From a virus: 29,827 nt of DNA. Shown one piece after another: positions 1,734-29,132 of the stretch. Where the stretch lies: positions 1-29,827 of IMG/VR virus record IMGVR_UViG_3300005663_000164, one strand, 5' to 3'. Under the pieces are notes generated by a model. The model was not told the origin of the DNA. It worked only from the letters and a program-made list of their open reading frames with translations, and made no database searches. Position 1 is the stretch's first letter. Every line of letters starts with the position of its first letter. The position numbers were made by a program, and so were the translations under genes.

Positions 1734-3284
1734 GTGATTGAAGAGAAAATAGATCGAGAAGAACTAATCGTTTATGAAATACTTAGGCATCCAGTTTTGT
1801 GTGCAGAGTTCCTAGAGAATGTTGATAGACAAGAGTGGGAAGAAGAGTGGAAGTTTACACTATATCAGAAACAATTTATTTGTGATTTTAATTCCTATGT
1901 AAGTTTATGTTGTGGTCGCTCTGTAGGAAAAACTGTAGCGATTGTGCATTTGCTCGTTTGGTATCTCATAAATAAAGTTTTTCCAAATGACTATTTAGTT
2001 TACACTGTACCAAATAAGGTCCACCTTGACCCTGTATTTATGGGGCTTACAAGACAATTTAGAAGTAATTCTATTTTAAGAAGTTATGTAGATAAGCGAG
2101 GAGGAATAAATGCATCTGACCACAATATTAAACTAAAAAATCTAACTATGTTGGATTGTAGAATCGCCGGAACGTCAGGCGGCGGTCAGAGCGTAATCGG
2201 GATGCATTCTCCAGTTGAATTCTTGGATGAGTCTGGGTTTTATCCCTGGGGAACGTGGATAGAACTTCAACCTACACTAAATACATTTCAAAAAGGATTT
2301 AGACAGTTTGTATCTGGAGTTCCTACGGGAATGCGAGAGAAGAATGTGTGCTTTTATGCAGACACTCTTGACCCAAAATTTTCTACCCATAGAATTTCAG
2401 CACATGAAAACCCAAGATATTCAAAAGAAGATGAGGAGAGAAATATTCACCAGTTTGGGGGTATAGATTCAGAAGATTATATACACCTAGTTCTGGGAAA
2501 GCATGGAACCCCAACATTTGCTGTGTTTGATAGAACTTTAATGAAGTTCGCAGATTACCCTGTATATAAGACCAAAATCAATGGGATAAAAATGACCACG
2601 CTACAAGAAATAATTGCTAGATTGGCACTTATCCCTTCAATAGATGCAAAGTATGATTTTCTTTTGGTAGGAATCGACTTAGGATATACAGACCCAACTG
2701 CTATTCATATCTTATACTCAAGAAATGGGATCAAAAGATATCATGCTAGGATTCAACTAGAAAAAGTCAAATATCCATTTCAGAAGAAGATCATTGATTA
2801 TTTAGACGAAAAGTTTGGGAGATTTGATATAATAGGTATAGATGCGGGAGGTCCTGGAAAACCAGTAGTACAGGACTTACTCGAAGGAGATGCATATATT
2901 CACAAAGACTATAAGAAGAGAATGATCCCTATAGAGTTTGGAGCCAACATTCATTTGGGAGAGGATTCTGAAGGGGAGGAAATAAAAACAAAGTTACGTC
3001 CCTTCGCTTTCTCTGTTCTACAGGAGTATACTAATTCTCATAGAATCATTTATTCATCTACAGATTTAGATTTAGTAGCTGAATTGGAAAGAACAACGTA
3101 CAGTAAGAATGTAAGGGGCGAGATTATTTACAGGACACTGACTCCAGGTGGAGGAAATAGAGGGGCAGATCATAATACTGCCGCCTTACTCTGTGCTGCA
3201 ATCGCCCATTGGCAAGTTAAAGATTCCGATATTCACAGATATAAACCTAAAAAGTTATTAACACCTAGATGGTTAAGAAGGTAA
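1734..3284 (+). CDS. terL: Terminase large subunit (packaging ATPase and nuclease)
   Basis: This 516-residue motor protein pumps DNA into the prohead and cuts the concatemer. It starts at GTG with AGAGGA upstream. Motifs in order: adenine-contacting LYQKQFI (43-49); Walker A GRSVGKT (61-67); Walker B with catalytic acid VEFLDE (161-166); coupling motif SGVPTG (194-199); then an RNase H-like nuclease with acids D315 (GIDLG), D370 (GIDAGG) and D479 (GADHNTAALL). All catalytic residues of both domains are present, so the protein should be active. The portal gene follows after four bases. No small terminase subunit is recognisable in the window; it probably lies upstream of base 1, before the glycosyltransferases. 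That would be an unusual separation of the two subunits. Confidence 0.95.
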   Translation: MIEEKIDREELIVYEILRHPVLCAEFLENVDRQEWEEEWKFTLYQKQFICDFNSYVSLCCGRSVGKTVAIVHLLVWYLINKVFPNDYLVYTVPNKVHLDPVFMGLTRQFRSNSILRSYVDKRGGINASDHNIKLKNLTMLDCRIAGTSGGGQSVIGMHSPVEFLDESGFYPWGTWIELQPTLNTFQKGFRQFVSGVPTGMREKNVCFYADTLDPKFSTHRISAHENPRYSKEDEERNIHQFGGIDSEDYIHLVLGKHGTPTFAVFDRTLMKFADYPVYKTKINGIKMTTLQEIIARLALIPSIDAKYDFLLVGIDLGYTDPTAIHILYSRNGIKRYHARIQLEKVKYPFQKKIIDYLDEKFGRFDIIGIDAGGPGKPVVQDLLEGDAYIHKDYKKRMIPIEFGANIHLGEDSEGEEIKTKLRPFAFSVLQEYTNSHRIIYSSTDLDLVAELERTTYSKNVRGEIIYRTLTPGGGNRGADHNTAALLCAAIAHWQVKDSDIHRYKPKKLLTPRWLRR

Positions 3285-4787: not shown

Positions 4788-5243
4788 GTGGATTATACAA
4801 AAATTAGAGGTATTGAAACCCAACGCATCAAAGATATACAACGTAAGTTGAGATCATTTTATGCTTGGAAAAATAAACCAGTTGAAAAATTCTGGGCAAA
4901 AGTCGAAATTCTTAATTCGGATAGTTGTTGGGAGTGGCAAAAAAGTAGACTCCCTACTGGATATGGACATATTGGTAGGTGGGGAAAGAAGATGAATACA
5001 TCCGCTCACAGAGTAGCCTGGGAAGTTACTTATGGTGAAATCCCTGAGGGATTACATATTATGCATCTCTGTGACAACCCTCCTTGTTGTAATCCTCAAC
5101 ATCTAATGGTGGGAACACACCAAGAGAACATGCGACAACGTAGTGAACGCAATGGAAAGTTGAAATCTATTGAAAAAATGGCTTCAGAATTACTTCATGG
5201 ATCAAAATTGTCCGAATTGGGAATTCTAATAATATACAATTAA
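4788..5243 (+). CDS. HNH endonuclease, probably free-standing homing type
   Basis: This 151-residue protein is an HNH_3-type endonuclease. The core runs from SCWEWQKSR (46-54) through AHRVAWE (first His, H74), GEIPEGLHIMHLCDNPPCCNPQHL (H93, zinc-type C95/C100/C101, N102, H105) to GTHQENM (109-115). Such enzymes nick or cut DNA at sites without the gene and spread by repair. It starts at GTG with a very strong AAGGAGG site. It has its own promoter and separates portal from protease, genes normally adjacent. The C-terminus looks truncated: after HGSKLSE family members usually continue with a DNA-binding helix-turn-helix such as V-x-x-I-R, while here the frame ends in LGILIIYN and stops. The nuclease core is intact. 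Recognition may be altered. Confidence 0.88.
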   Translation: MDYTKIRGIETQRIKDIQRKLRSFYAWKNKPVEKFWAKVEILNSDSCWEWQKSRLPTGYGHIGRWGKKMNTSAHRVAWEVTYGEIPEGLHIMHLCDNPPCCNPQHLMVGTHQENMRQRSERNGKLKSIEKMASELLHGSKLSELGILIIYN

Positions 5244-9016: not shown

Positions 9017-10285
9017 ATGGGCAGGAGAAAGAAGGTAAAGATTCCTATATTGGTAGTTGGAGATGGAGTAGCAAGTACGGGTTTCTCAAGAGTAATTCAT
9101 AATGTAATGAGAAACTTACCTCGTAATAAATATGACATCCACCACTTAGCGGTGAATTATAGGGGCGACCCTCACGATGAAGCGTGGAAGATTTATCCCG
9201 CATCGTTGGGTGGAGATATTTATGGAATAAAAAGGGTGGGTGACTTAGTTGACCAAATAAAGCCAAAATTAATTTTTGTTCTAAATGACCTTTGGGTTCA
9301 TGGCTTTTATATGAAAGAAGTACTAAAAGGATATGTGGATAAAATTCCATTAATAGCCTATGCTCCAATAGATGCTGCACCTGTTCAGGAAGCTTGGTTA
9401 GAGGACCTAAATGGAATCTCTAGACTTGTTGTATATACTGAGTTTGCAGCGAAAGAAGTAAAGAAAGCTTTAAGTGCAATGGTTATTGATGAGAACGGGA
9501 ACGTTCTATTAGATAGGGAAGTTCCTGCTCTAGAAGTTATTCCTCATGGAATAGATACATCCGTATTTTATCCTTGGAATGATGTAAAAGGCCCCAACGA
9601 TGTAGTGATTGAAACGGGAAGAGAGAGAGCAAAGAGAGAGCTTTACCCTAATAGAGAGGATTTTACAGGAGATTCATTTATCGTTTTGAATTCTAATAGG
9701 AACCAACCTAGAAAAAGAATTGACATTACTATAAAGGGATTTTCTGAATTTGCAAAAAATAAACCTAAAAATGTAAAGTTATACCTCCATATGGGAGTTG
9801 AAGATGCTGGTTGGAATATTGTACAACTCTGTAAAAGATATGGAATGGATGATAGATTAATTTTAACTAGTACATTAAATCAAATTCCTGGTGTTCCAGA
9901 TAAAAGAATGAACCAGATTTATAACGCCTGTGATGTTGGAATAAACACATCTACAGGAGAAGGGTGGGGACTAACAAGTTTTGAACACGCTGCCGCAAGA
10001 GCAGCCCAAATAGTTCCAGACCACTCTGCATGTACTGAAATTTGGGAAGGAAATGCGGAAATGTTAGATGCTACATATTCCTTGACTACCGAGAGAATTT
10101 TGACAGAGGGACGTTTCGTATCTCCAGGAGATGTTGCTGAAGCCCTAGAAAGACTTTATGAAGACCCCAAGTATTTAGAAGAGATGTCTAATAAAGCATA
10201 TAAATTGGTAACTCAGAATTGTTATAGCTGGAAAACTATAGCCAAACAATGGGATAAACTCTTTACGGATGTCTTAGATGATTAG
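9017..10285 (+). CDS. Glycosyltransferase, family 4 (GT-B)
   Basis: This 422-residue protein has a complete GT4 layout. The N-terminal acceptor half starts with ILVVGDGVASTGFSRV (Gly-rich loop, 11-26) and has LIFVLNDLWV and IAYAPIDAAP. The C-terminal donor half has IPHGIDTSVFYP (175-186), NRNQPRKRID (228-237) and the E-x7-E site in TGEGWGLTSFEHAAARAAQ (E315 and E323). All expected donor-binding residues are there, so it should be active with a nucleotide-sugar donor. It starts at ATG after GGGAGG. It splits the connector genes, an odd place for a transferase, and with the two transferases at the window start makes three in one late region. Likely targets are a virion protein or a surface glycan; DNA modification is also possible. 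Confidence 0.9.
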   Translation: MGRRKKVKIPILVVGDGVASTGFSRVIHNVMRNLPRNKYDIHHLAVNYRGDPHDEAWKIYPASLGGDIYGIKRVGDLVDQIKPKLIFVLNDLWVHGFYMKEVLKGYVDKIPLIAYAPIDAAPVQEAWLEDLNGISRLVVYTEFAAKEVKKALSAMVIDENGNVLLDREVPALEVIPHGIDTSVFYPWNDVKGPNDVVIETGRERAKRELYPNREDFTGDSFIVLNSNRNQPRKRIDITIKGFSEFAKNKPKNVKLYLHMGVEDAGWNIVQLCKRYGMDDRLILTSTLNQIPGVPDKRMNQIYNACDVGINTSTGEGWGLTSFEHAAARAAQIVPDHSACTEIWEGNAEMLDATYSLTTERILTEGRFVSPGDVAEALERLYEDPKYLEEMSNKAYKLVTQNCYSWKTIAKQWDKLFTDVLDD

Positions 10286-10352
10286 GGGAAATATATAAAG
10301 TTCCTAGAAGTACAATTTATCAAATAGTTTATAATAAACGATATGTGGAATA

Positions 10353-10802
10353 ATGGTTGTAACGATAGCTTGGCCCGACAATACAGCAGGAGTAACAGAT
10401 GCGATTCGAGATGCTATTGGTAGAGACGTTACTATCAATACCACGGTATCTGGAATTCCATGTCCTGTGTCTGGATGTCTTTTAAATCCTGTTACGAATT
10501 TAGCCACTGATCCGTTCTGTCTTGTATGTGAAGGACAACACTGGATAAACACAACTTCTGGGCTGGTTGTAAATGCACATGTAACTTGGAGGCCAGCAGA
10601 TATACCAGTGTGGGTTACTGGTGGAGTTATACTACAGGGAGACTGTCTAATACAAATAAAATACACTGATCTTAGGTTAGATCAAGTTAATGAAGCAACT
10701 AATTTTATAGTTGATAGTAAGGAAATGATTAAGCACGATGTTATATTGCGGGGAGTTCCAGATTTAAATAGAATCTTGGTTACTTTAAAAGAGGTAGATT
10801 GA
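10353..10802 (+). CDS. Probable head-closure/neck protein with zinc-type cysteines
   Basis: This 149-residue protein contains C37-x4-C42-x13-C56-x2-C59 (PCPVSGC...DPFCLVCEGQHW). That spacing suggests a bound metal ion, and similar Cys knuckles occur in small phage head-tail joining proteins. The remainder is beta-rich (VVNAHVTWRPADIPVWVTGG; CLIQIKYTDLRL), fitting a head-closure or joining beta barrel. It lies between the GT4 gene and the other connector genes. The 67-base gap before it contains a TATAAT (10330-10335) but no good -35 and no strong ribosome binding site, so the start codon and regulation are uncertain. No in-frame start exists upstream before a stop at 10335. Confidence 0.55.
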   Translation: MVVTIAWPDNTAGVTDAIRDAIGRDVTINTTVSGIPCPVSGCLLNPVTNLATDPFCLVCEGQHWINTTSGLVVNAHVTWRPADIPVWVTGGVILQGDCLIQIKYTDLRLDQVNEATNFIVDSKEMIKHDVILRGVPDLNRILVTLKEVD

Positions 10803-10812
10803 GGAGATTAAA

Positions 10813-11073
10813 ATGGGACGCGATAATATTGTACCTACCCAGGATACATTCGGCCAGATAACTATAGATGGAATAAGTATGCTGGATGTCCTAAGTTTTG
10901 TGAATAAAAATAATGGAAGATATATAGCAACAATGCTCTCTAATCTAGAGGGTGTTCTTCCAGCGGACTCAGAGGAATTTAAGGCCGTGAGAAAGATTTT
11001 ACTCGACGGAATGAATGATTTTACTCGGGCTATTCTTATAGAAATCTTTGGTAATATTGAAGGACTTAAATAA
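10813..11073 (+). CDS. Small hypothetical morphogenesis protein
   Basis: This 86-residue protein starts at ATG after GAGGAG and stops one base before the GTG of the next gene. It has a short beta N-terminus (QITIDGISMLDVLSFV) and then two charged helices (NGRYIATMLSNLEGVL; FKAVRKILLDGMNDFTRAILIEIF). No motif or membrane segment is present. I do not recognise it. The tight coupling to the head-neck genes on both sides suggests a small assembly factor or connector subunit. Confidence 0.55.
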   Translation: MGRDNIVPTQDTFGQITIDGISMLDVLSFVNKNNGRYIATMLSNLEGVLPADSEEFKAVRKILLDGMNDFTRAILIEIFGNIEGLK

Positions 11074-11901
11074 GTGGCCGAAGATTTTCTTGCAAAATTT
11101 GGGAGAAGTCTACGAAAGATAAGTAGTAAACTAGTTGAGATAGATGTAGATGGGATATTTAAAGAAGCTGAAAAGCCTATTGAAAAGGCTGTAAGAAATA
11201 TATTATTAACAAATCTAGAAAACGCTATTGCACAAACTCCGGAATTTCAAGACGAAGCTTTGTCAGAGAGACTCAGAGTTGTATTTTCTAAAGAAGATAT
11301 GGTAAAGGTTGAGGGAGAAAAAATTAGAATTTATGCTCCATCTAAAGCAGGGGACTATTACGATTTAGCTAGAATAATGGCATCAGCAAAAAATGAATAC
11401 AGTGATAGTAAGTTGTCTCCAGAAGATGCACTCAATTTTTGGAAAGAAAGAATTTATAAGCCTGCTAGAGAGAACACTGTTCCAACTAAAACAGATGATC
11501 CTAAGAGAAATTTTTATCGGGGAAATAAATTTGACTATAGAGGATACGGAAGGGAAGCTTATAGACAGGCCATAGATACTAGACTATCTCGAACCACTCA
11601 GATGCCATTTTGGAATTGGTTAGAGGATGGTCTTGATGCTAGTTATTATCCATCGTGGGGAGCAACAAATTTTGTACGTAATACAAAAGACCAAGGAAAT
11701 GCTTTATACCGAGAAGAGGTTTTAAAGTTAACTAGAGAAGTCACAAGTGTTATAAATGATGATATGGCTAAGTTTCTTGAAAATCCAGAAACCTTTGAAC
11801 CAGGAACAATTTTCTCAGAGATTATTGGATTTACAGAAGAAACATATTATGTCATAGTTACACCCAAAAGCAAACTTGGTGTAACTACAGAGAGACCATA
11901 A
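11074..11901 (+). CDS. Hypothetical neck/tail-completion protein
   Basis: This 275-residue protein starts at GTG immediately after the previous TAA, with AAGGA nine bases upstream. The N-terminal 75 residues are helical and charged (KFGRSLRKISSKLVEIDVDG; AEKPIEKAVRNILLTNLENA). The middle has an aromatic, Arg-rich stretch (RNFYRGNKFDYRGYGREAYR) and WNWLEDGLDASYYPSWGATN. The end is beta-like (EIIGFTEETYYVIVTP). Its place is just before the tail-terminator-like gene, where HK97 gp10-like completion proteins lie, but I cannot see a decisive motif. The conserved-looking aromatic patch could be an interface. It has no enzyme signature. Confidence 0.5.
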   Translation: MAEDFLAKFGRSLRKISSKLVEIDVDGIFKEAEKPIEKAVRNILLTNLENAIAQTPEFQDEALSERLRVVFSKEDMVKVEGEKIRIYAPSKAGDYYDLARIMASAKNEYSDSKLSPEDALNFWKERIYKPARENTVPTKTDDPKRNFYRGNKFDYRGYGREAYRQAIDTRLSRTTQMPFWNWLEDGLDASYYPSWGATNFVRNTKDQGNALYREEVLKLTREVTSVINDDMAKFLENPETFEPGTIFSEIIGFTEETYYVIVTPKSKLGVTTERP

Positions 11902-13677: not shown

Positions 13678-14193
13678 ATGAGTGCAGGGATTTATCAAAT
13701 ACGAAACGTAGTAAATGAACATATTTATATAGGTAGTTCTACTAATTTAGACAGAAGAAAAAAGACTCATTTCAATGATTTAAGTAAAAATAAACACTAT
13801 AATGAGTATCTTCAAAGAGCTTATAATAAATATGGTGAAGATAAATTTATATTTGAAATCCTTATAACATGTTCTCCATCAGAGTGTATTCAACATGAAC
13901 AACAGTTTCTAGACCAACAAAATCCAGATTATAATTTATCCAAAAATGCTACAAAAAGTTTGGCTGGATGTAAGAGGTCCGATAGGTTCAGAAAAAGAGT
14001 AAGTAAGGGAAGAAAAGGAATGAAGTTTTCTGATGAACATAGGGAAAATATTAGAAAGGGACATTTAGGCATTAAACCTTCAGAAGAAACTAAAGAAAAA
14101 ATGAGGGCGGCTCAAAGGAAAAGACGATCTGATCCAAAAGATCGAGAAAAAACTAGTAAGGCCATCACAAAATGGTGGAAGGAGAGGAGATAG
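13678..14193 (+). CDS. GIY-YIG homing endonuclease with NUMOD3 motifs
   Basis: This 171-residue protein starts at ATG with AAAGGAG upstream. The GIY-YIG nuclease domain occupies residues 4-90: GIYQIRN (4-10), HIYIGSS (15-21), R26 and the H-x-x-L core with the NKYGEDKFIF motif (50-59), and the metal-binding glutamate in HEQQFLD (E74). Residues 100-150 hold two NUMOD3-type DNA-binding segments (RKGMKFSDEHRENIRKG; LGIKPSEETKEKMRAAQ), and a basic tail follows. These genes spread by cutting sites without the insert. It lies free-standing between tail tube and tail chaperone and overlaps the next start codon by one base. Flanking genes are intact, so no intron is needed. Confidence 0.92.
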   Translation: MSAGIYQIRNVVNEHIYIGSSTNLDRRKKTHFNDLSKNKHYNEYLQRAYNKYGEDKFIFEILITCSPSECIQHEQQFLDQQNPDYNLSKNATKSLAGCKRSDRFRKRVSKGRKGMKFSDEHRENIRKGHLGIKPSEETKEKMRAAQRKRRSDPKDREKTSKAITKWWKERR

Positions 14194-14903: not shown

Positions 14904-15193
14904 CCCGTAGCAACGCAGTAAATTCTGCTTGGAGCGTTGCGGGCGGTGACTGGAAAGGAATGTTTCCTGGATTTAACAATACTATTGATCTTCCTTGGAC
15001 AATGAGTTTTGTTGTAAGAAAGAGAAAACAAATAGATTCTTTTAGGGAACTTCCAAAAGAAAAAAGACCACCTACCATCATGACTTGGTGGGGAACTCCC
15101 GAAGAAATTGATGTGTGGTTTGATAGAGTATTTGATAGAAAGAGTTCCGAACAAGACAACGAAATATTTATAGATGAGAGTGAGATTGGATAA
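14193..15193 (+). CDS. Tail assembly chaperone G-GT fusion by -1 frameshift
   Basis: A programmed -1 slip on A AAA AAA at 14894-14900 joins the G frame to the -1 frame, which is open with no stop from the slip to the TAA at 15191. The extension begins IARSNAVNSAWSVAGG and includes WKGMFPGFNN, WTMSFVVRKRKQI and TWWGTPEEIDVWFD. It adds 97 residues for a fusion of about 333. In lambda, the G-GT fusion binds the tape measure and recruits tube subunits, and the G to G-GT ratio matters. An ATG at 14960 in the extension has no ribosome binding site and is better read as part of the fusion than as its own gene. The tape measure start overlaps the TAA by one base. Confidence 0.9.
14894..14944 (+). promoter_or_regulatory. 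Programmed -1 frameshift site: slippery heptamer and stem-loop
   Basis: The heptamer A AAA AAA (14894-14900) is in the correct frame, with the last two zero-frame codons AAA AAA, and the zero-frame UAG follows immediately. A GC-rich stem forms from 14910-14916 with 14934-14940 (7 bp, all Watson-Crick, starting nine bases after the heptamer) and is extended by 14903-14906 with 14941-14944 (4 bp) across a three-base bulge (14907-14909). The 17-base loop could itself pair weakly (CAG with CTG). Both parts are typical of tail-chaperone frameshift signals. Confidence 0.88.
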
Positions 15194-18100
15194 TGGCCGC
15201 TGAAGAACTAAAACGAGATTTAGCAGATATACGTCAATTTATTGATGGGATAGTTGAATCTACACAAAGCTCAAGTACTGCCCTAGAAGAATTTAGGCGA
15301 CAATTAAAGGGTATCTCTGAAGGGCAGTTTGTGTCTGGAACCGCGGCTGGTGCTCAGAATTTCATTACAGAGTTTATCCGAAGTTTAGGGGAGGCCGAAA
15401 CCCAACTTATTAGGATGGAAGCGACAGTAAATAGAATTTTCGCTGAACCAAAAACTTTAGGAAGATTTGGTGGAGGCCGTCCAGTAGAGGGGGGAAGGTT
15501 TTTAAATCAAGGCCCCAAACCTATTGAAGTGGACATTGATTTTGATGAGAAATTTCTTGAAAAGATTGAAAGGCTAAAAGGCCAACTCGAAGGCATAGAA
15601 GACCAAGATATAAGAGTAGCAATTTCAGGGATAGAGGGTCTAGAAAGACTAACTATGCTTTATGATAAGGTACTATTTTTTAATAAGGAACCAGCTCATG
15701 CGAATGCTATGGGGGGAGATGCGGACTTAAAAAGACTAGATAACCTTCTTGGAAAAGTAAAAGGAGTAGCTCATGAAGCAGCTTTAATTGAAGACGCTTT
15801 TCGTATGGACATGAAAATAACAGGGACGGAAGACCTTGATGAGGCTTCGGAACGACTAATGGAGCTTCATGCCTCAACTACGGATGTAAAAACGGAAGGT
15901 GGAGATGTAAGAATTAAAGTAACTGGCCTGAAATCGGCAATAGAGATGAAGACCGCACTTAAGGAACTCGTAGCCTTAGAAAAGGAACTTCAACGAGTAT
16001 CAGACGAAGGTGGCTTTGGACAAAAGGATGTTGGTGGCCCCCAAGAACAATTGTTTGGAGGAAAAACTGTCAGTGATATAAATAGAGATGCTCTAAAACT
16101 TTCAACTACCTTTGATAAACTAGCTGATAATCCTCTATTTGTTAAAAGTCTTCCTGGTGGAGCTAATGCGGTAAAGAATATTACTCGTGAATTTGAAAAA
16201 TTTAATTTTTCATTGGAAAATATTAAAGACGTTTCTATTGATGGTTCTAGAGGAATTACACGATATAGTGCATCCATACTTGACAATTTTGGAAAAGTAC
16301 GGACTGCGACTGTTGTAACAGATAAGTGGGGAAATACTCTACAAAGTACCCAGAAAAACTTTAGAAATTTTGCAAGTGCAATTCAGAGGAATGTTGGAGA
16401 GGTTGTTAAGTGGACAGTTGCTATTGGGCTAGTTTATGGAACCATGAGAAAATTACAAGAGGTAATTACATTCTCAATTGAAATAGAAAGTAAACTAGCC
16501 GATGTGCAAGTAGTCCTAGGAAAAACAGGGGCCAATTTAAATGCCATATTTGAGAGTGCTGCTGTTATTTCTAGGGAACTCTCTGTTGAACTCACTGGTG
16601 TTGTAGAAGGATATGTATTAGCTATACGTGCCGCAGGTAAATACGCAGATGAGACTGAAAGAGCACATATGGCGACAGCACTTCTCAAAGATTCAATGAT
16701 TTTAGCCAAATTATCTGGCTTAGACCAAGCAGTAGCGTTGGATACTTTGGTTGGAGCATTATCACAAACAGGTAGGGAATTAGATCAAGGACAAGAATTA
16801 TTAGATAAGTGGGTGGCTGTAGCCAAAGAAGCCAATGTAAGTTTAGCTACACTAGCAGAATCTTTTGCTATTACATCTACAGCAGCAGAAAATGTTGGGA
16901 TTGATCTAGATAAATTAAATGGAATTATCGCCGCTGTTGCAGAGGTAACGACGCTCTCCGCTACCGAATCTGGTAATGCTGTTAGGGCGTTTGTTTCAGG
17001 ATTTCAAACCGTAGAAGCAGAAAGGGCTTTGGGTAAATATGGTATAGCAGTAAGAGATGCTAGAGGCGAGCTTCTGTCTTTCGTTGAGGTTATAGAAGGA
17101 ATTGTATCAAGACAACAAATGGGAATCATCTCAGATCGAGATGTAGCCAAGATTTCAGAATCCATTGGTGGGGGTGCTCGTCGTGGCGCTCAAGTCAATG
17201 CATTTATTGAGAACTATGCACGAGTTCTTACTCTTGCAGAAGTTAGTGCAAACGCTAGTGGAGATGCACAAGAATCTCTCGGAATTAAATTAGCTACAGT
17301 AGAATCTGCTTTAGTGAATTTATCCAATGCCTTTACTCAACTTTCTCGTGAAATTGGGGAAAGAGGAGGCTTTTTAGATTCAATATCTTCTGGTGTTGAT
17401 TTACTCACGAGTCTTATTGATGGAATTCGTTCTCTTATAGATTTTCTAGGACCAGCTACTAAAGCCCTTACAGCATTTGCCGCAGCTTGGTTAATCTTGG
17501 GTGGGATTGGGCCTATTAAGGGAATTGGAGGTCAACTTATCCCAAAATTGCCACAAGGTATAGGAATCCGCCAAGGGATAGGAATTGCTGGAGGAGCCGC
17601 TGGGGGTTTTATTGACAAAACATTTCTACCCAGCAAACAACACACACCTACTTTTGGAGGTCAACAGACTGTGGGAGGTTTCTTTGGGGGAACTCCGGCT
17701 GGTAGGGGTTTAGCTGGTGCAGGTATTGGCCTTCTTGGTGGACTTATATCAGGTGGGGAACCGAAAGAGATAGGGGGTTCAATAGCAGGAGCGATTGCTG
17801 GCAGCTTGATAGCTGGTCCAGTGGGAGCAGTTATTGGATCAGCTATGGGAATGGCTATGGTTGAATCGGTTGAACTTGAGGCATCTACTATAGTAGGAGC
17901 TTTTAGAGCCGCGGTGTTGGGACAACCTCTAGAGCTACTAATCCCTGAGGATGATGAAGACCCCGATAGAACTAGAGTAAGTGTCCTAGGAGAGCGATTA
18001 ACAGCTTCTATTGAGAAGGGACTTGCTCAAGTATTTACACCAATCTTTACAGGGACACAGATGGAAATATCAAGGAAAAAGGCGACAGAACCTATCCAAG

Positions 18101-19806
18101 AACTTTTAGTAGAACGAGGTAGATTAAAAGAAGGACAATTACTATCAGAAGAAGAACTCAAAAAACAATATACCCTTTTAATTGGAGAACTTTTAGCTGG
18201 AATATTAGACCCAGAAGATGCAGAAAAGATATTTGGGGCAGATATTGAATCATTTATGGATTTGTCTGGGTGGCTGGCTGGTGCTCAAATGACCAGAGAG
18301 GAAGTAAGAAAAGCCTTTGAGGAATTGAATGCTGCCATTTTAGAAGAAGCTAAGAAACTTGATTTAGAGACTGCTCTTGAAGGTACTCGTACTTTTGAAA
18401 GATTAAAAGGTGTTCAAACTGCAATAGCTCCAAGTGTAAGAGCTGTTGGAGAGGAAAGATTAGCACATCTAAGGCAACAAGCTATTAGAGGCGAGGGTGG
18501 AGTTGGACTAAAAGAAATAAAAGATTTAGCCGCGGATTTGCCTACACTACAAAATCAAGTTAGTGCTGTTTACGCGGCTTTAGAAGATAGCGATCAGGCT
18601 GTGGGTGGTATAGAGAATATTGTAGGCTCAGTAGAGGAGTTAACTCTGCTTATGTTAGTAGGAGGACAAGAAGTTTCTACCGAGTTTAATCGAATAGCAG
18701 GTGATATTCTTCGAGTTCAAGGAGAGATAGAAAAACTGGAAGATGCTGGATTAGGGCCTGAAGATAGAAAACTAGGACCACTTCTAGTAGATTTAAGGAA
18801 ACTTCGGGAAGAACTAGGTCTTGCAATAGATGTCTCTCAAAAGGGACTTATATGGGCCGATTTTGAAATGCCAGACATATTAGAAGTTTCCTCTGAATTT
18901 GAAAGTCAAATGGATGCACTTATAGCTAGAGCATTTGAGAAGTCTGAAGAGATTATGGATGCACTAGGTTTAGATGAAACTCAAAGAGAAAAAGTTAGAT
19001 CGACCTACCGTCAAGTTATGTTTGATATTGAAGGCGAGCTTGTACCTATAGACCAAGATGTTCCTCTTGATATTTTGCAGAATTTGATTCGTGAGGAGGG
19101 GTTGGGAGCAAAAGCCGATTCTCAAATGCAAGTTTTAACTCCTGACATATCTTCCGCAGAGGCACCAGCCTTAAGAGCTAAAATTAAAGAGTTTGAACGG
19201 ATACTATTGACCATCCCTGGTTTTGAGTTAGAACCAGAAACTCTAGGCGTTATATTTAGTGATTTTGTGACTGACACTCTGCATGGGGACAACTTAGCTA
19301 TTCAATTAGCTCTCCGAGACTTAATTAAGGTGAATGAAGATCAATTGGAGGGTATTTTCAATATCCCTGAAGGAATGTCTGCGTGGATTCCATTCACAGC
19401 AGCTATGAATTTGGGAAGTGGTGGGGGTGGTGCAACAATACCAGAGGTTCAACAAGAGCTTGAACAAGAGTTACCAAGAGAGTTTTCAGACCTTCTTGAA
19501 GCAAGTAAATTGATGGGCTTAAACGCTTTCAGAGATATGGAAAGGTGGGTAGCGGCCAAGATGGGACAAGGTGAAGGGGGTACTGGTGAGTTGCCGAGAA
19601 CAACAGAACAAGCTGCTGGAGATGCAATGCAACAACTACTGCCTGAGAGTATCAATGTATCTATTACCAATGATATAGAGATTGATATTCCTATCTACAT
19701 TCGAGGCGACATTATTCAGCGGGAAGTAAGAAAATTCTTAGAACGTGATCTTATTCAAACTGTGGCAAGAGTTGGTGCAGGTAGTTATCATCAAATTACA
19801 AAATAA
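15193..19806 (+). CDS. Tail tape measure protein
   Basis: This 1537-residue protein starts at ATG overlapping the GT stop by one base (taATG). The N-terminal 400 residues are helical and charged (heptad-rich). Residues about 400-770 form the conserved phage tail tape measure region, starting VVKWTVAIGLVYGTM and including SRELSVELTGVVEGYVLAIR, ASLATLAESFAITSTAAENV and AALATAWLIL-type hydrophobic helices near FLGPATKALTAFAAAWLILG. Residues about 770-895 are rich in Gly, Ala and Ile (LGGLISGGEPKEIGGSIAGA; IAGSLIAGPVGAVIGSAMG), like glycine-zipper sequences that could insert into the host membrane. The rest is helical again, ending with a beta segment (SINVSITNDIEIDIPIYIRG). It sets tail length and helps DNA entry. 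By the usual rough ratio of 1.5 angstrom per residue the tail would be on the order of 200 nm, which is an estimate. Confidence 0.95.
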   Translation: MAAEELKRDLADIRQFIDGIVESTQSSSTALEEFRRQLKGISEGQFVSGTAAGAQNFITEFIRSLGEAETQLIRMEATVNRIFAEPKTLGRFGGGRPVEGGRFLNQGPKPIEVDIDFDEKFLEKIERLKGQLEGIEDQDIRVAISGIEGLERLTMLYDKVLFFNKEPAHANAMGGDADLKRLDNLLGKVKGVAHEAALIEDAFRMDMKITGTEDLDEASERLMELHASTTDVKTEGGDVRIKVTGLKSAIEMKTALKELVALEKELQRVSDEGGFGQKDVGGPQEQLFGGKTVSDINRDALKLSTTFDKLADNPLFVKSLPGGANAVKNITREFEKFNFSLENIKDVSIDGSRGITRYSASILDNFGKVRTATVVTDKWGNTLQSTQKNFRNFASAIQRNVGEVVKWTVAIGLVYGTMRKLQEVITFSIEIESKLADVQVVLGKTGANLNAIFESAAVISRELSVELTGVVEGYVLAIRAAGKYADETERAHMATALLKDSMILAKLSGLDQAVALDTLVGALSQTGRELDQGQELLDKWVAVAKEANVSLATLAESFAITSTAAENVGIDLDKLNGIIAAVAEVTTLSATESGNAVRAFVSGFQTVEAERALGKYGIAVRDARGELLSFVEVIEGIVSRQQMGIISDRDVAKISESIGGGARRGAQVNAFIENYARVLTLAEVSANASGDAQESLGIKLATVESALVNLSNAFTQLSREIGERGGFLDSISSGVDLLTSLIDGIRSLIDFLGPATKALTAFAAAWLILGGIGPIKGIGGQLIPKLPQGIGIRQGIGIAGGAAGGFIDKTFLPSKQHTPTFGGQQTVGGFFGGTPAGRGLAGAGIGLLGGLISGGEPKEIGGSIAGAIAGSLIAGPVGAVIGSAMGMAMVESVELEASTIVGAFRAAVLGQPLELLIPEDDEDPDRTRVSVLGERLTASIEKGLAQVFTPIFTGTQMEISRKKATEPIQELLVERGRLKEGQLLSEEELKKQYTLLIGELLAGILDPEDAEKIFGADIESFMDLSGWLAGAQMTREEVRKAFEELNAAILEEAKKLDLETALEGTRTFERLKGVQTAIAPSVRAVGEERLAHLRQQAIRGEGGVGLKEIKDLAADLPTLQNQVSAVYAALEDSDQAVGGIENIVGSVEELTLLMLVGGQEVSTEFNRIAGDILRVQGEIEKLEDAGLGPEDRKLGPLLVDLRKLREELGLAIDVSQKGLIWADFEMPDILEVSSEFESQMDALIARAFEKSEEIMDALGLDETQREKVRSTYRQVMFDIEGELVPIDQDVPLDILQNLIREEGLGAKADSQMQVLTPDISSAEAPALRAKIKEFERILLTIPGFELEPETLGVIFSDFVTDTLHGDNLAIQLALRDLIKVNEDQLEGIFNIPEGMSAWIPFTAAMNLGSGGGGATIPEVQQELEQELPREFSDLLEASKLMGLNAFRDMERWVAAKMGQGEGGTGELPRTTEQAAGDAMQQLLPESINVSITNDIEIDIPIYIRGDIIQREVRKFLERDLIQTVARVGAGSYHQITK

Positions 19807-22780: not shown

Positions 22781-23518
22781 ATGTATTTTGATCGTGCGGG
22801 TTTTCTAGGAAACTATCCAGATGATTTAACTGCTTCAGGTAAATATATTCCTTTATCGGAATCAATGATCTGGTCAGAAGAGGATGGTTCGTGGAAACCC
22901 TTTGTAACTGTATCAGGGATCAAAACTATTGAGGAAACAAATAGATTTGAAACTTTATTTGTAGATATAGAAGATGTATATTTAATAGGTGGACATTATA
23001 TTAGTCCTTTACAAGAGTTTGTTAGACACGTTGACGCTGTACATGCTTTAGGAGACTTTACAAATATATCTCGCTGGAATAGAGAAACATATAGTGGAGT
23101 AGTGGTTGGAGAAGTAAAAGATTATTCAGGAGATTACCCATTTGATCCTGCATCAACATTCTCAGGGATGCTAAGACATTATTCTGCAAACGATGGGTTT
23201 GAGTTTGGATCATTGACAGTAAGATTTGATGCTGAAAGAAGTCCATACGTAGCACATGCTCTCTACCCAGCAGAGGGTGAATCTAGTTGGATTAGACATT
23301 CTACAGGAGAGGGCTGGATACAAGATGCAGTAGAAATGTTATTTGTTGATAAGGATGATTTTGGAAGAATCTTAGTTTCTACTACAGTGAGCGGATTACT
23401 GATTTTAGACACAGAACTCGGAATGATGCCATCACCTACATATGAGAAAGCGAATCTTTCGTTTATAGAAACATCCGGTGTCTTTGTTACAGATATGGAT
23501 ACATTGAGGATTTATTAA
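22781..23518 (+). CDS. Tail-tip beta-propeller-like protein
   Basis: This 245-residue protein begins at ATG after AAGGAT, eight bases downstream of the previous stop, in the -1 frame. It is rich in beta strands and Gly/Ser/Tyr/Asp turns (YIPLSESMIWSEEDGSWKPF; FETLFVDIEDVYLIGG; ESSWIRHSTGEGWIQDA). SEEDGSW is a degenerate Asp-box, so it may carry the last blades of the propeller begun in the previous gene. It could be a natural split of one gene, because the two together make about 775 residues, or a separate subunit. It overlaps the fibre gene by one base (taATG). No enzyme residues are visible. Confidence 0.55.
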   Translation: MYFDRAGFLGNYPDDLTASGKYIPLSESMIWSEEDGSWKPFVTVSGIKTIEETNRFETLFVDIEDVYLIGGHYISPLQEFVRHVDAVHALGDFTNISRWNRETYSGVVVGEVKDYSGDYPFDPASTFSGMLRHYSANDGFEFGSLTVRFDAERSPYVAHALYPAEGESSWIRHSTGEGWIQDAVEMLFVDKDDFGRILVSTTVSGLLILDTELGMMPSPTYEKANLSFIETSGVFVTDMDTLRIY

Positions 23519-25350
23519 TGCCACCGACGATACTTAGAGATTATCACGTAAATTTACTTGACACCATGCGTGGTATGTCAAATTCCGATAAGTGGTGGAC
23601 AGCACCTTTAAATCTGGGTGGAAGTTCTGGGGCAGATGGGGGTTCAGGAGTACCCCTTGGTGGAGTTTATGGGCAATTACCCCAAGGTAAGATTGCCTAT
23701 GACACTACAGAAGATAGTTATTCAGGGTATTATGATCCAGCACTTCCATCCATATTAGACAACTTAGCCCACATGAGGTATAGTATAGCCCTCATTAGTG
23801 GGGGAATATCTTCGATTCGAGAAGACGGAGTCGAGATTGTCTCAGATGCTACTGTTTTGAATTTTGATGCTGAATTTGAAATAACGGACGCGGGCGGAGG
23901 GGAGGCCCTAATTGGGTATGGTACCTTGCTCAGACAGCGTGATGACAGATATAATTATCACGAAGATGGTGCTATTACATTTTGGAGACATGGTTCTCAA
24001 CCAAATACAACTGGAATCGAGGTTGGCTATTATACTAATTTTATTAATGGATCTCATGGATTTAAAGTAAGAATCGTAGGAGATGATTTTGGCAAGCGAG
24101 GATTTTTAGAGGTAGGAGGTATAGAGGCAAGTACCTATTATCGAGATCGGTTTGTTGATATAGATGGAGATTTATCTCCCGCTACAAGTTCGATTACCCG
24201 TCTTTATGGTATAGTTTCGAGTCCAGGCCTTATTCCGAGGGATGATGGCACTGCTGCTCTAATGGCTGTTTATGGACGGGCTGATGTTGGGAAAACATCG
24301 AAGGACGTAGCTTCGGGGATTGCTTTTTTTGCTCAAACTCCAGGACAATATGCTCCTGGATATGGATTTTTTGACCTAACTTATGGTTTGTATGTAGAAG
24401 ACCAAAATGTAGGAAATGTCTCAGGCTATGCTATTTATACTAATCTTGGGCATGTAAGTTTAGGCGACACCCTAGATATGCGTGGAAATCGTATCATCAA
24501 TATTAGTGATACGTCTCTAAAATTCCAAAGCGGAATAACAATCACATCTGCTGATTATAATGATCTAACAGATGGTGGAGAAACTACATTACACAGTCAC
24601 GCTGGGGGCGGCGGTGGGAGCGGGGTAGGTCCACATACTCTAGGAAGTGATACTCATACCGATGTAACATTCTCTGGGGTAGTGACTGATGATGTTATAG
24701 CTTATGATATTAGTGAGTGGAAAAATCGACCAGGATTATTTGCGACACTTTCTGGACTCGCTAATGATGATGTATTAGCATATGATTTAGGTGATGATGA
24801 TTGGAAGAATACTCCAGCATTTTTAATTACAATATCTGGATTACAAGATGACGATATAATTCGGTATGATGATGAAACAGGGTTTTGGAGAAATGAACCT
24901 TCTGGGGAAACAATACAAGCTTATGGACACGCATACCAAAATAGTTCATTTGTAGTAACTATTTCTGATAATAATCCAACTGAAGTAGATGATGCTAGTA
25001 CTCCGACTATATCTGGCGGACTACTTAAAAATATTGCATTTACTGACCATTATCTTAGAGTCTTAGTCTCAGGAATATATAAAATAGATTGGTCATTAGC
25101 TATGTCAATGGATAACGCGGCAGGCACTCCAGAGGTTCATGGAGGAATTATGATAAATAACATGGCTCAAATAGAAGGAAGAACACAGAGGACAATTCAA
25201 ACAGCCAATGATGTTGGGGCTATGAGCAGTATATGTGTTTTAGATTTGGGAATTAATGCTCAAATTAGCTTATTTGTCCGAAATGAAACAAATAACAATG
25301 ATGTAACGATTGAACATTATAATGTAACTGTAGTATTCATTGGAGAGTAA
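23518..25350 (+). CDS. Tail fibre with C1q-like tip
   Basis: This 610-residue fibre starts with a helical/loop N-terminus (residues 1-75, tail attachment), then a beta-rich shaft. MRGNRIINI (about 320-330) is a motif common before fibre shafts. LHSHAGGGGGSG (358-369) is an HxH-plus-glycine linker found in fibre knobs, where HxH can hold metal. Three units beginning DDVIAYD, DDVLAYD and DDIIRYD follow (residues 391-461, 26-28 residues each, each with W-K/R-N-x-P). The C-terminal 130 residues, from about 480 (SGIYKIDWSLAMSM; SICVLDLGINAQISLFVRNE; VTIEHYNVTVVFIGE), have the jelly-roll order of C1q/BclA tips, which bind surfaces as trimers. It likely recognises the host. Confidence 0.8.
   Translation: MPPTILRDYHVNLLDTMRGMSNSDKWWTAPLNLGGSSGADGGSGVPLGGVYGQLPQGKIAYDTTEDSYSGYYDPALPSILDNLAHMRYSIALISGGISSIREDGVEIVSDATVLNFDAEFEITDAGGGEALIGYGTLLRQRDDRYNYHEDGAITFWRHGSQPNTTGIEVGYYTNFINGSHGFKVRIVGDDFGKRGFLEVGGIEASTYYRDRFVDIDGDLSPATSSITRLYGIVSSPGLIPRDDGTAALMAVYGRADVGKTSKDVASGIAFFAQTPGQYAPGYGFFDLTYGLYVEDQNVGNVSGYAIYTNLGHVSLGDTLDMRGNRIINISDTSLKFQSGITITSADYNDLTDGGETTLHSHAGGGGGSGVGPHTLGSDTHTDVTFSGVVTDDVIAYDISEWKNRPGLFATLSGLANDDVLAYDLGDDDWKNTPAFLITISGLQDDDIIRYDDETGFWRNEPSGETIQAYGHAYQNSSFVVTISDNNPTEVDDASTPTISGGLLKNIAFTDHYLRVLVSGIYKIDWSLAMSMDNAAGTPEVHGGIMINNMAQIEGRTQRTIQTANDVGAMSSICVLDLGINAQISLFVRNETNNNDVTIEHYNVTVVFIGE
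24688..24900 (+). repeat. Three tandem fibre repeats (26-28 residues)
   Basis: Units start at 24688, 24766 and 24850 with DDVIAYD, DDVLAYD and DDIIRYD, and each continues with W-K/R-N-x-P; the first two run on to LSGL/ISGL-x and the third is cut short after NEP. They sit between the glycine linker and the C1q-like tip and probably form a shaft segment. Clear at the protein level, diverged at the DNA level. Confidence 0.75.
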
Positions 25351-25406: not shown

Positions 25407-25949
25407 ATGGCTATAGTAGCAGGAGATTTACTATATAAACACACTGGAGCGGCATCACATAACGCTTCTCAATCTGATCCAGATGCGTGTTTAGGAAATT
25501 ATCGAGCATCAGAAAATGTTGGTGCTGGAGATAATAACCTATTCGATGATGTGTCTGGAGCAGAATCAGGTGCGGGTGATACAGAATATAGAGCGGTTGG
25601 TTTCTTGAACAATCATGGGTCTTTAACTCTTACATCTATTAAAGCTTGGATTCAAGTAGATACAGGTAATGCTGAAGATGATATTAGTTTTGATGTTGAA
25701 GTTCCAGCAGTCAGTGAAACAACTGGAGCAATCCAAACAATTGCTAATGAATCCACAGCACCGACTGGTCTAGGTGGATGGTCCGATGCCACATCTAAAG
25801 CAACGGGGAAGGCGGCTCCTGGTGGTGGAGGGGATTTAGCCTTTGGGGAATGGTTTGGACTTTGGGTCAGGCGAATTATCTCAGCAGCAGCATCAGCAGC
25901 AGCTGCTGAGTCAGTAACCTTTCGTATAGAAGGTGATACACCAGCATAA
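25407..25949 (+). CDS. Structural (probably surface) protein
   Basis: This 180-residue protein is preceded by the strongest promoter in the window and by TGGAGGAAAA. The sequence VAGDLLYKHTGAASHNASQS, NLFDDVSGAESGAGDTEYRA, VGFLNNHGSLTLTSIKAWIQ is a pattern I recognise from virion proteins of unassigned phages (N-terminal G-D-h-x-x-h-x-x-x-G-A, then a beta sandwich with h-x-N-x-H/x-x-L-T-L). A Gly-rich loop and a run of Ala and Ser (ISAAASAAAAESVTFRIEG) close it. It has no membrane segment or signal peptide. It could be a fibre or head surface component. Because its promoter is independent, the protein may be needed in large amounts. Confidence 0.55.
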   Translation: MAIVAGDLLYKHTGAASHNASQSDPDACLGNYRASENVGAGDNNLFDDVSGAESGAGDTEYRAVGFLNNHGSLTLTSIKAWIQVDTGNAEDDISFDVEVPAVSETTGAIQTIANESTAPTGLGGWSDATSKATGKAAPGGGGDLAFGEWFGLWVRRIISAAASAAAAESVTFRIEGDTPA

Positions 25950-25961
25950 AAGGAGAATAAG

Positions 25962-26417
25962 ATGGCTTATCAAATCGTAGAAAATGATGTACGATTGTTA
26001 AGAAGAATGTTAGTTTGTTATAACATCGGAGATTCTATGTCCGGAGATAGAGTTAGGGAACATCTATCTCAAAAGGGGCTAAATTTTGTACTGGGGTCGG
26101 AAATAGATTCAGAAGAACGTAGGGGAAATATGTTTGGTGGGATGCCAATAAATGAAGCTTGGTTAGCCAATGCGTTTGGTTTTGCTGTATTAATAGATTA
26201 TCAGAATGAGGTCATATTTTTAAATTCAATGTGGGCAAATCCTAGAACCTTGTATGTAAAATTAGTTAAAGAAGTTCCAGAGCTTGATAAATTAGGAACA
26301 ATAGTCTATCTACCATTCATAACTATAGATATCGCTAAATCTTTAGCGGAAGTGTATCATAAACAATACGCAGAATTCTTAGGGACAATAGAAGATGCAG
26401 AAAGTAAAAGTCACTAA
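25962..26417 (+). CDS. Hypothetical protein
   Basis: This 151-residue protein starts at ATG after AGGAG. I do not recognise it. It begins with a basic helical stretch (VENDVRLLRRMLVCYNIGDS), followed by SGDRVREHLSQKGLNFVLGS, hydrophobic strands (FGFAVLIDYQNEVIFLNSMW), and a helical end (LAEVYHKQYAEFLGTIEDAE). It has no signal peptide, transmembrane helix, or catalytic pattern. It is in the unit opened by the 25358 promoter, so it is probably a late or accessory virion protein. The next gene starts inside its last 23 bases. Confidence 0.45.
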   Translation: MAYQIVENDVRLLRRMLVCYNIGDSMSGDRVREHLSQKGLNFVLGSEIDSEERRGNMFGGMPINEAWLANAFGFAVLIDYQNEVIFLNSMWANPRTLYVKLVKEVPELDKLGTIVYLPFITIDIAKSLAEVYHKQYAEFLGTIEDAESKSH

Positions 26418-26799
26418 AGAACATATAGATATTCATAAATATCAAGGTAACTCTAAACTTTTCCTTTTTAGTGAAATCGAAGGTAGGAATGGTCAGAAAA
26501 AGGCAGATAAGATGTCTGCCAAAATTCAACGCGAATATTTAGATGAACGTATAAATATAAAATCTCTTCCAGAAGATGATCCAGACAGATATAAAGACCC
26601 AGACAATAAGAGTATGTTCTGGGAAGAAGATGAAGGAGAAACTTATTTAGTCTCTAGAGGGCACACGATTGAATTGAAATGGAAGGACGGTAAATATAGG
26701 TCTAGAGTCGCAAGAACCTCAGAATTTGATCCTTCAAAATTTAAACCAGAAGGTAGTGGGCCTAAAACACCCACAGATAAACCTAGTTGGGGATTTTAA
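26395..26799 (+). CDS. Hypothetical charged protein
   Basis: This 134-residue protein overlaps the previous gene by 23 bases and has only a weak ribosome binding site, so it is probably translated by coupling. It is strongly charged (KVTKEHIDIHKYQGNSKLFL; EIEGRNGQKKADKMSAKIQR; SLPEDDPDRYKDPDNKSMFW). The C-terminus is poor in hydrophobic residues, rich in Pro, Lys and Ser (SKFKPEGSGPKTPTDKPSWG), and probably disordered. I do not recognise a family. The next in-frame ATG at residue 40 lies within a conserved-looking stretch, so I keep the first one. Confidence 0.45.
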   Translation: MQKVKVTKEHIDIHKYQGNSKLFLFSEIEGRNGQKKADKMSAKIQREYLDERINIKSLPEDDPDRYKDPDNKSMFWEEDEGETYLVSRGHTIELKWKDGKYRSRVARTSEFDPSKFKPEGSGPKTPTDKPSWGF

Positions 26800-26802
26800 G
26801 AT

Positions 26803-28416
26803 ATGGCACTAACAGTTAATCTTATTGAGGGATTTGATGCGGGTGGACTCTATATCGCCGATGTTATCAACGGTTCCCCATCAGTTGACGCAGTTAATCA
26901 ATACACTGGTGCTGGTTGTTTTTTAGCCGGTGCTACAGGTGATGGAATTGAGATATTAACTACTATAGCCCAAAATGTAAATCAATTTGAGTATAATATT
27001 GGGCTTAGAGTTAGATTTGAAAATGTTACTACTGACCAAATATTTTGGGCATCCGAAGATAATACAGGTAGTCGTAATATTGCCTTGCAACTAGACTCCA
27101 CTGGTTATTTTCAAGTTATAGATGCGAATGGTGCTGTAGTAGTTACAGGAGTAGTTCCAATAAGTGTTGATACTTGGTATCATTTGGAAATGTACTGGTT
27201 TCAAAATGACTCAGCAGGAGAAGTATTTTTAGTTGTAGACGGAGTTGTTGATATTAATCATGGAAGTACCGAAGATTTTAAAGGTCTTGGAGGTAATTAC
27301 AGGCATATTTTACAAGCTGGAGCTAATTTTGATATTTGGATTGATGATTACTACCATATTACTGACAGTGGTGGCCCTGTAAATTTTATTGGAGTAGAGC
27401 ATGAAGTTTTAGGAGTTTATCAAAATACAGCCGAAGATAGTACAGACCAAGGTGATCCACTAACTGCGGGAACTTGGGCCAATGCCGGAGAAGTTCCCAA
27501 GAATGATAGCAATACAGCCGATTATGATACTGGTTCTGCTGGAACCGGATATGCTCGTATGGATGAAGGAACACGCTTGGGGCCACTCACCGATATAGAT
27601 GGTGCTGTTTATGCTGCATGGTGGATGTGGAACGTACGTAGAGGTAGTGGTAGCGGAACTACTCATTACCTAAGATACGGAGCTTATGATGGAGCTACGG
27701 ACCAAGTAACTGATTCGGTTGAAAGTTTAAATTCGGGTCTAAAAGTTTTTGCTAGATCATCTATAACCGCGTCGCGTGTTCCAGACGATACAGATGAATA
27801 TTTTTGTCAAGGTATCAGAAAAACTTCTGGAGGTCGAGAAATTTATTGTGCAGAAATGTGGGCATGTATCTTACATCAGGGACCCTCACCTTTTACACAG
27901 GTTAATAAAGATTTAGCTTTACAATGGGACATCATTGGACTCGTAAATAAGGATCAACAATTAACGTGGGATATTTTAAACTTAGTCAATAAAGATCAGC
28001 AATTTCAATGGGATATCCTAAATTTAGTAAATAAGGACCAACAATTTCAATGGGACATAGCAGAATTAGTTTATAAAGATTTGGCCCTTGTATGGGATAT
28101 GGCGGGTGCAGTTGGTAAAGATTTAGTTCTAGCGTGGGATATAGCAGAATTAATCTATAAAGATCAACAGATACAATGGGACATACTAAATTTAATTAAT
28201 AAAGATCAAACTTTTCAATGGGACATAGCAGAACTTGTCAACAAAGATTTAACTCTAGTTTGGGATATGGGAGAGTTCGTTTATAAAGATTTAGCACTTA
28301 TATGGGATATATTCACTTTTAATCCTGTATATAAGGATTTGTTATTGCGGTGGAGCATTAGACGAGTAGAAAGAGAAGGGCCGCACTTCTTAGGCTTTAA
28401 GGTAATAATACCGTAA
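26803..28416 (+). CDS. LamG-like virion protein with 14-residue tandem repeats
   Basis: This 537-residue protein has three parts. Residues 1-195 look like a LamG/concanavalin-type beta sandwich (LIEGFDAGGLYIADVINGSP; WYHLEMYWFQNDSAGEVFLV; VDGVVDINHGS), a fold that binds glycans. Residues 196-366 are a second beta-rich domain with Trp, Tyr and Gly (YAAWWMWNVRRGSGSGTTHY). Residues 367-506 are ten exact 14-residue repeats of the form (V/I)-(N/Y/G)-K-D-x-x-h-x-W-D-(I/M)-x-x-h, followed by an Asn-Pro insert and one diverged unit ending RWSIRRV. A short basic end follows. It lies at the end of the unit driven from 25358 and could be an adhesion fibre. The repeat is probably a structural beta unit. 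Family and function remain open. Confidence 0.65.
   Translation: MALTVNLIEGFDAGGLYIADVINGSPSVDAVNQYTGAGCFLAGATGDGIEILTTIAQNVNQFEYNIGLRVRFENVTTDQIFWASEDNTGSRNIALQLDSTGYFQVIDANGAVVVTGVVPISVDTWYHLEMYWFQNDSAGEVFLVVDGVVDINHGSTEDFKGLGGNYRHILQAGANFDIWIDDYYHITDSGGPVNFIGVEHEVLGVYQNTAEDSTDQGDPLTAGTWANAGEVPKNDSNTADYDTGSAGTGYARMDEGTRLGPLTDIDGAVYAAWWMWNVRRGSGSGTTHYLRYGAYDGATDQVTDSVESLNSGLKVFARSSITASRVPDDTDEYFCQGIRKTSGGREIYCAEMWACILHQGPSPFTQVNKDLALQWDIIGLVNKDQQLTWDILNLVNKDQQFQWDILNLVNKDQQFQWDIAELVYKDLALVWDMAGAVGKDLVLAWDIAELIYKDQQIQWDILNLINKDQTFQWDIAELVNKDLTLVWDMGEFVYKDLALIWDIFTFNPVYKDLLLRWSIRRVEREGPHFLGFKVIIP
27901..28320 (+). repeat. Ten 42-bp units encoding a 14-residue repeat
   Basis: The units are exactly 42 bases, in frame, and start with VNKDLALQWDIIGL. 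Lys-Asp at positions 3-4 and Trp-Asp at 9-10 are present in all ten units, while two forms alternate at positions 5-8 (mostly DLAL and DQQF). Synonymous changes are common, so the repeats are old and kept by selection on protein, not recent copies. A diverged eleventh unit follows at 28327-28368 after Asn-Pro. Confidence 0.9.
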
Positions 28417-28758: not shown

Positions 28759-28785
28759 ATGAGTAGGTTTCAGGGTAGTAACTAA
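28759..28785 (+). promoter_or_regulatory. Eight-codon upstream reading frame coupled to the HNH gene
   Basis: ATG 28759 with AAGGTG eight bases upstream opens a frame for MSRFQGSN whose TAA overlaps the HNH start by one base (TAATG). The HNH start itself has no ribosome binding site. This looks like a leader that carries ribosomes to the endonuclease, or the remnant of a gene start broken by the insertion. Confidence 0.4.
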
Positions 28786-29132
28786 TGACTTTACTGTTTG
28801 GTGAAGCGGCCTATAACCAGTTGTACCATAATAATAAACGTAGTGCCAAACTAAGAGGACATAATTGGAATCTTAGAAAACAAGATTTCAAGTCTCTCAC
28901 TCAAATGCAGTGCTATTACTGTGGTATTGAGCCTAGTCAGATATATCACAATAAGGAACTTAATGGCGATTATCTCTACAATGGTGTCGATAGAATAGAT
29001 AACAATCTAGGGTATATCTACGGAAATGTATTACCTTGCTGTAAGACTTGTAACTATGTTAAATCTAATCAGTCAATGAGAGAGTTTCAAGCTTGGATTG
29101 ATAGACTAGTAGAACACCAAGGTAGACAATGA
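28785..29132 (+). CDS. HNH endonuclease with zinc-type cysteines
   Basis: This 115-residue protein has C43-x2-C46 (CYYCGIEP), then NGVDRIDNNLGYIYGNVLPC (67-85), ending C86-x2-C89 followed by N90 and K93 (CKTCNYVKSN). That is the C-x2-C, (V)-D-R-I-D-N, G-N-h-x-P-C-C-x-x-C-N-x-x-K pattern of a well-known group of HNH nucleases found in phages. It lacks the DNA-binding extensions of large homing enzymes. It overlaps the lysozyme start by four bases (ATGA), with the lysozyme ribosome binding site (AAGG) inside its last codons, so it is in the lysis region as a cassette. It probably acts as a mobile nuclease. A role in DNA packaging cannot be excluded but HNH packaging nucleases usually lie near terminase. 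Confidence 0.85.
   Translation: MTLLFGEAAYNQLYHNNKRSAKLRGHNWNLRKQDFKSLTQMQCYYCGIEPSQIYHNKELNGDYLYNGVDRIDNNLGYIYGNVLPCCKTCNYVKSNQSMREFQAWIDRLVEHQGRQ

Follow-up and report, generated by a model that had tools for sequence, protein, structure and literature searches.

A 14-residue repeat array and a predicted beta-sandwich protein appear paired across unrelated phages and are candidates for a two-part virion module

Arrays of an aromatic 14-residue repeat and a separate 180-residue protein predicted to fold into a beta-sandwich are almost certainly paired across unrelated phages. The near-constant adjacency of the two genes suggests that their products probably build a virus surface structure jointly, and we give slightly better than even weight to the reading that the repeat units are repeated docking sites for the partner, forming a beaded virion fibre.

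The window, meaning the whole stretch of DNA analysed, is a virus record of 29,827 bases with phage structural genes, including a terminase (1734-3284), a tape measure (15193-19806), and an endolysin (29129 to the end). The repeat-bearing protein of 537 residues (26803..28416, plus strand; open reading frame and translation) is laid out as an N-terminal beta-rich region, a second region, the 14-residue array, and a short tail. The original prediction counted ten exact-length units and one more after an Asn-Pro insert, and this count holds: ten consecutive units with the consensus V-N-K-D-L/Q-x-L/F-x-W-D-I-x-x-L cover residues 367 to 506 (27901..28320, plus strand), and the eleventh follows the insert with a spacing of 16 at residues 509 to 522 (28327..28368, plus strand). 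Its claim that silent-site divergence reflects selection on the protein pattern is borne out by the codons, as units 2 and 3 have 12 residues in common, 6 of them with different codons, and units 4 and 9 have 7 in common, 6 with different codons. Because identical residues in different units are often encoded differently, the protein pattern, and not recent DNA copying, accounts for the likeness of the units.

Repeat number in relatives had been proposed as a check, and a near-identical IMG/VR phage (L002; DNA identity of 99.6% and 98.8% in two blocks) provides it. Its protein has 481 residues and lacks exactly 168 bp, or four units, between units 4 and 8, the zone of difference corresponding to 28045..28233 (plus strand) in the window, and 21 bp of homology lie at the junction. 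The copy number therefore changes in whole units, and recombination between repeats would give the observed length difference and junction homology. The unit profile chained along the L002 protein scores 217.6, compared to 4.0 ± 4.4 for shuffled sequences.

The N-terminal sequence of the window protein reads as beta-rich, and its first 190 residues or so (26803..27372, plus strand), for which the model draws low-confidence strands (pLDDT below 62), are possibly a LamG-like jelly roll; the region yields no Pfam match, and its best PDB matches are agrin G-domain chains with an E value of about 0.5. Directly upstream of the repeat gene lies a 134-residue protein without a family match (26395..26799, plus strand), and a 151-residue protein, defined as an open reading frame (25962..26417, plus strand), lies between the partner and the repeat gene. 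Translations compared by eye place relatives of the latter in the same cassette of L007 (6610-7065) and, upstream of LamG/repeat genes, in L015 (4492-4827). The window also encodes a fibre-like protein of 610 residues (23518-25350) with three copies of a repeat of about 30 residues (D-D-V-I-A-Y-D ... W-x-N-x-P), which is unrelated to the 14-residue unit. Three probable homing-type endonucleases (4788-5243, 13678-14193, and 28785-29132), two HNH-like and one GIY-YIG-like by eye, are found among the structural genes, one of them shortly behind the repeat gene.

Neither the repeat protein nor its array matches a Pfam or NCBIfam family above the cut-offs, and the PDB gave no usable match for the repeat protein, the array, or the partner. 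The PHROG 6079 profile, named "tail protein", matches the array in most repeat proteins with E values down to 6.8e-31, and in the window protein it covers residues 365 to 488 (E value 5.7e-5). This family covers the array, and its name conveys neither a function nor anything about the repeat period, the associated partner, or the mosaic N-terminal regions. These searches support the original view of an undescribed repeat element in a virion-structural neighbourhood.

The partner gene (25407..25949, plus strand), assigned by PHROG profile, AlphaFold, and co-occurrence, matches PHROG 13135 (phrog_13135; "unknown function") over its full length (positions 1 to 182 of 182, E value 7.7e-19), with no Pfam or NCBIfam match above the curated cut-off. 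The AlphaFold structure, predicted from 45 sequences, is a beta-sandwich of about seven main strands (pLDDT 90.4, pTM 0.87). Among viral models it comes closest to that of an uncharacterised siphophage protein (TM 0.79), and among solved structures it has no match at an E value of 0.001 or lower. The weak structural neighbours are led by glycoside hydrolase family 123 domains, with many type 1 pilus subunits below; the Fim chains give E values of 0.015 to 0.2 (best about 0.01) and TM scores of about 0.2 to 0.3. The likeness in working to pilus subunits such as FimA and FimG, which are completed by donor strands, would lie in an alternating hydrophobic strand that completes a beta-sandwich, the fold similarity not being significant, and it is tempered by the general resemblance of beta-sandwiches to one another.

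Relatives of the repeat were gathered by DNA patterns spanning two or three units, which revealed arrays of 4 to 51 units in a dozen further IMG/VR records and in one Geobacteraceae metagenome-assembled genome (MAG) (L035). The latter is genuine, whereas most DNA-pattern matches in bacterial genomes are chance or simple repeats; Klebsiella tail-fibre matches were dropped, being on the strand opposite the annotated gene, and the plasmid collection gave no match. The 59 arrays retrieved by way of the partner give the consensus [VI]-x-x-D-L-x-h-x-[YW]-x-[VI]-x-x-x, where position 9 is aromatic and position 11 hydrophobic in 95% each, and the step is exactly 14 residues in 715 of 853 cases, a spacing of 16 or 17 being the commonest small exception. 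The shortest arrays have 3-5 units and the longest 51. Several arrays, in L011 (3945-5057) and L007, give way at their ends to a different short beta motif, with RTLVVEPEN or RSFVLTLEE as the repeat.

Partner relatives were first spotted near the arrays in L007, L012, and L035 and directly behind gp15 in KVP40-like Vibrio phages, and the docking idea was formulated before the co-occurrence tests. Starting from the repeat, phrog_13135 is present in 11 of 14 repeat-bearing records, the remaining three being fragments of 19, 6, and 13 kb, and in none of the five false-positive records with chance patterns. Starting from the partner, we picked 80 IMG/VR loci with the partner alignment alone, which was seeded from repeat-bearing phages, and compared periods of 9 to 24 residues in the 10 kb around. 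The strongest protein period, obtained with no repeat model, is 14 in 66 of the 80 loci, some of which are near-duplicates, so that these counts are not fully independent; the next commonest period is 12, in four loci. A repeat-profile score of 25 or more is reached in 59 of the 80, and 52 contain runs of at least four [WYF]x[VILMT] spaced at exactly 14 residues. When the six records with a known repeat are removed, period 14 is found in 60 of 74 loci and the profile in 53. The controls, 80 viral loci selected with a Walker-A-like pattern and amounting to 627 kb, roughly half the DNA of the partner loci, contain no profile match, no period-14 run, and no partner, and a strong top period (score of at least 80) only twice, in low-complexity sequence.

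Most of the partner loci in which no array was detected end within 2.5 kb beyond the partner on the usual array side, and in some, such as L081, L084, and L105, the array has diverged too far to be picked up by the profile; L131 combines the partner with 20 kb of sequence that contains no array. The repeat gene and the partner are on the same strand in all 59 of 59 loci, and a locus with two repeat proteins usually has one partner gene for both. The more the partners diverge, the more the repeat profiles do (Mantel r 0.60, p 0.0005, n = 54), a correlation to which shared descent contributes and which shared descent alone can produce. The 36 N-terminal domains of the repeat proteins fall into 27 groups without detectable similarity, and the proteins bearing the array in phage A5 and in Vibrio phages are unrelated, indicating that the partner follows the array: the N-terminal domains vary freely, while repeat and partner remain together.

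The pairing extends to isolates. Partner relatives are found in 54 of 50,697 phage records, comprising 52 Vibrio phages, one Alteromonas podophage, and one huge phage, and the repeat query matches 49 Vibrio phages; in the array of EniLVp02, Phe or Tyr replaces Trp and the 14-residue step is kept. In KVP40-like Vibrio phages, the tail sheath stabilizer gp15, a protein found in 1,993 phage records, has a C-terminal extension with 14-residue aromatic repeats (378 to 504 residues in total), and the partner gene comes directly after it. In six relatives (T4, RB16, and Aeromonas, Acinetobacter, cyanophage, and Klebsiella phages), gp15 has 266 to 278 residues, no array, and no adjoining partner gene. 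Extension and partner are thus present or missing together among those examined. Only the core of KVP40 gp15 matches Pfam (Pfam ID PF16724), and the extension and KVP40.0353, which present the same 14-residue aromatic repeat and the same adjoining partner family, bear no functional annotation. The window likewise has an exact 14-residue aromatic array and, within one cluster of structural genes, a phrog_13135 gene, although the anchor is a tail-terminator protein in the KVP40-like phages and a possibly LamG-like protein in the window.

In the N4-like podophage A5 (Alteromonas schitovirus), the partner's neighbouring gene contains five periods of 14 residues, the one place in the 75-kb genome that the repeat profile matches (E value 1.2e-4); the paper describing A5 contains no virion proteomics (PMC10579305). 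The phylum to which the Geobacteraceae MAG belongs was covered with 395 genomes, and these yielded one additional partner carrier, G295 (L273 7653-8633), in which the gene directly upstream of the partner repeats W-x-[IV] every 12 residues (EAAWKILAGISR). This is the only clear even-length variant seen, and its step, again even and constant, suits strands with the same face pointing the same way.

A few records speak against docking. The tail protein of Aeromonas phage AVP3 (L067 3963-8378) ends in a 14-residue array (VIADLTAPYGLQPG), and no partner was detected in any Aeromonas record, possibly because the array is convergent or its partner escaped detection. Conversely, the huge phage LR756511 (L063 14869-17080) encodes two adjoining, enlarged partner-like proteins of 425 and 309 residues, and no array was found anywhere in its 595-kb record; L131 is a second case of a partner without an array.

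The pair is located between the major head protein and the head-tail adaptor in L012, between the portal and the major head protein in L035, just ahead of the portal in L137, behind the tape measure in L100, and ahead of the endolysin in the window. This gene context, together with gp15 as a known virion protein with the same repeat, makes a virion location in the window phage very likely. Glycosyltransferase-like genes also lie within the structural clusters of the window (825-1730 and 9017-10285) and of its relative L007 (7598-8287), and they may serve in virion protein modification. The structural region of L007 furthermore encodes two possibly host-derived proteins (9203-11121), one a lipoprotein similar to periplasmic sugar-binding proteins and the other glycosidase-like.

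Direct binding between partner and array seems reasonably likely to us from the pairing. Each unit (V-x-x-D-L-x-h-x-[WY]-x-[VI]) would form a short beta-strand in extended conformation, its hydrophobic residues alternating, and would bind a single beta-sandwich partner, possibly through strand addition. The array with its bound partners would then form a beaded fibre on the virion, with the number of units setting partner copy number and fibre length and the exchangeable N-terminal part anchoring the fibre or bearing a functional domain. An extended unit of 14 residues spans about 46 to 48 angstroms, roughly the length of one beta-sandwich, so neighbouring units could hold partners side by side. 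Strand donation by the units is a more doubtful proposition than binding as such. Equally tentative is the full module, in which one chain of equal-length donor strands would complete one dedicated beta-sandwich each, giving beaded fibres with a length counted by repeats, as a cassette placed on tail, neck, head-region, and lectin-like anchors.

The best-surviving alternative, which we consider rather unlikely, is that the array folds alone into a beta-solenoid, a hairpin stack, or an intertwined trimeric beta-fibre, the partner being a dedicated chaperone, cap, or anchor that is not bound per unit. Alternating hydrophobic residues and an even, constant unit length would fit such a fold, and dedicated chaperones are common for phage fibres; one example is given in the A5 paper (PMC10579305). 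However, the AlphaFold monomer prediction, run on the whole window protein with 18 sequences (overall pLDDT 40.7), yields neither a beta-solenoid nor any usable fold for the array, drawing residues 365 to 525 as a helix with a pLDDT of about 60. Further points against self-folding are that 14 residues are short for a solenoid coil of one chain, that array length varies from a handful of units to 51, and that arrays are also carried by gp15 and by small proteins such as A5 gp16. The self-contained beta-solenoid or hairpin stack first envisaged for the window protein finds no support in this low-confidence monomer model, and the strongest evidence ties the array to a separate beta-sandwich protein to which that proposal had drawn no connection.

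An array serving as a flexible spacer or weak adhesive for mucus, particles, or cell surfaces, with the partner as an independent decoration protein of the same accessory cassette, would agree with the position of both among head, tail, or neck genes. We judge it improbable given that the pairing is near-complete in myo-, sipho-, and podophages whose neighbouring genes are unrelated, and a loose association of this kind would be expected to break more often than a pair that is kept through N-terminal exchange. A long alpha-helix or coiled coil, with 14 residues as two heptads, is very improbable despite the helix drawn by AlphaFold, as the model confidence is low and the strand-like alternation of hydrophobic residues at positions 5, 7, 9, and 11, the beta-branched residues (V/I) at positions 1 and 11, and the proline that recurs at position 8 of some arrays ("KDLAMPYDI" in L009) indicate strands.

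Several known systems resemble the proposed docking arrangement in part. On cohesin-dockerin scaffoldins, a single chain offers a series of equivalent sites where another protein docks, as the phage array would, but the scaffoldin docking unit is a folded module and the phage unit would be a 14-residue strand, with no sequence relation. In pili, each subunit has its own donor strand, whereas the proposed module would place all the strands in series on a single chain. In crAssphage, too, a structural protein carries tandem repeats that vary, the BACON repeats, yet BACON is a folded domain of a carbohydrate-binding type without a partner protein (PMC6949934). In the open-licence literature, we found no description of the 14-residue repeat or of the pairing, and within that scope we regard the two-part module as new as a kind, with the reservation that the docking mechanism is proposed.

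The pairing brings together two PHROG families, labelled "tail protein" and "unknown function", in a single module. Its carriers are T4-like Vibrio phages, an N4-like Alteromonas podophage, many uncultivated phages, and a bacterial MAG. Docking is open to testing in cultured phages, for example, nt-1 on Vibrio natriegens. If the units dock the partner, the module would give phages a fibre built from scaffold and subunits, its length encoded in the number of repeats and altered by recombination between them, and many unannotated virion genes would gain a function.
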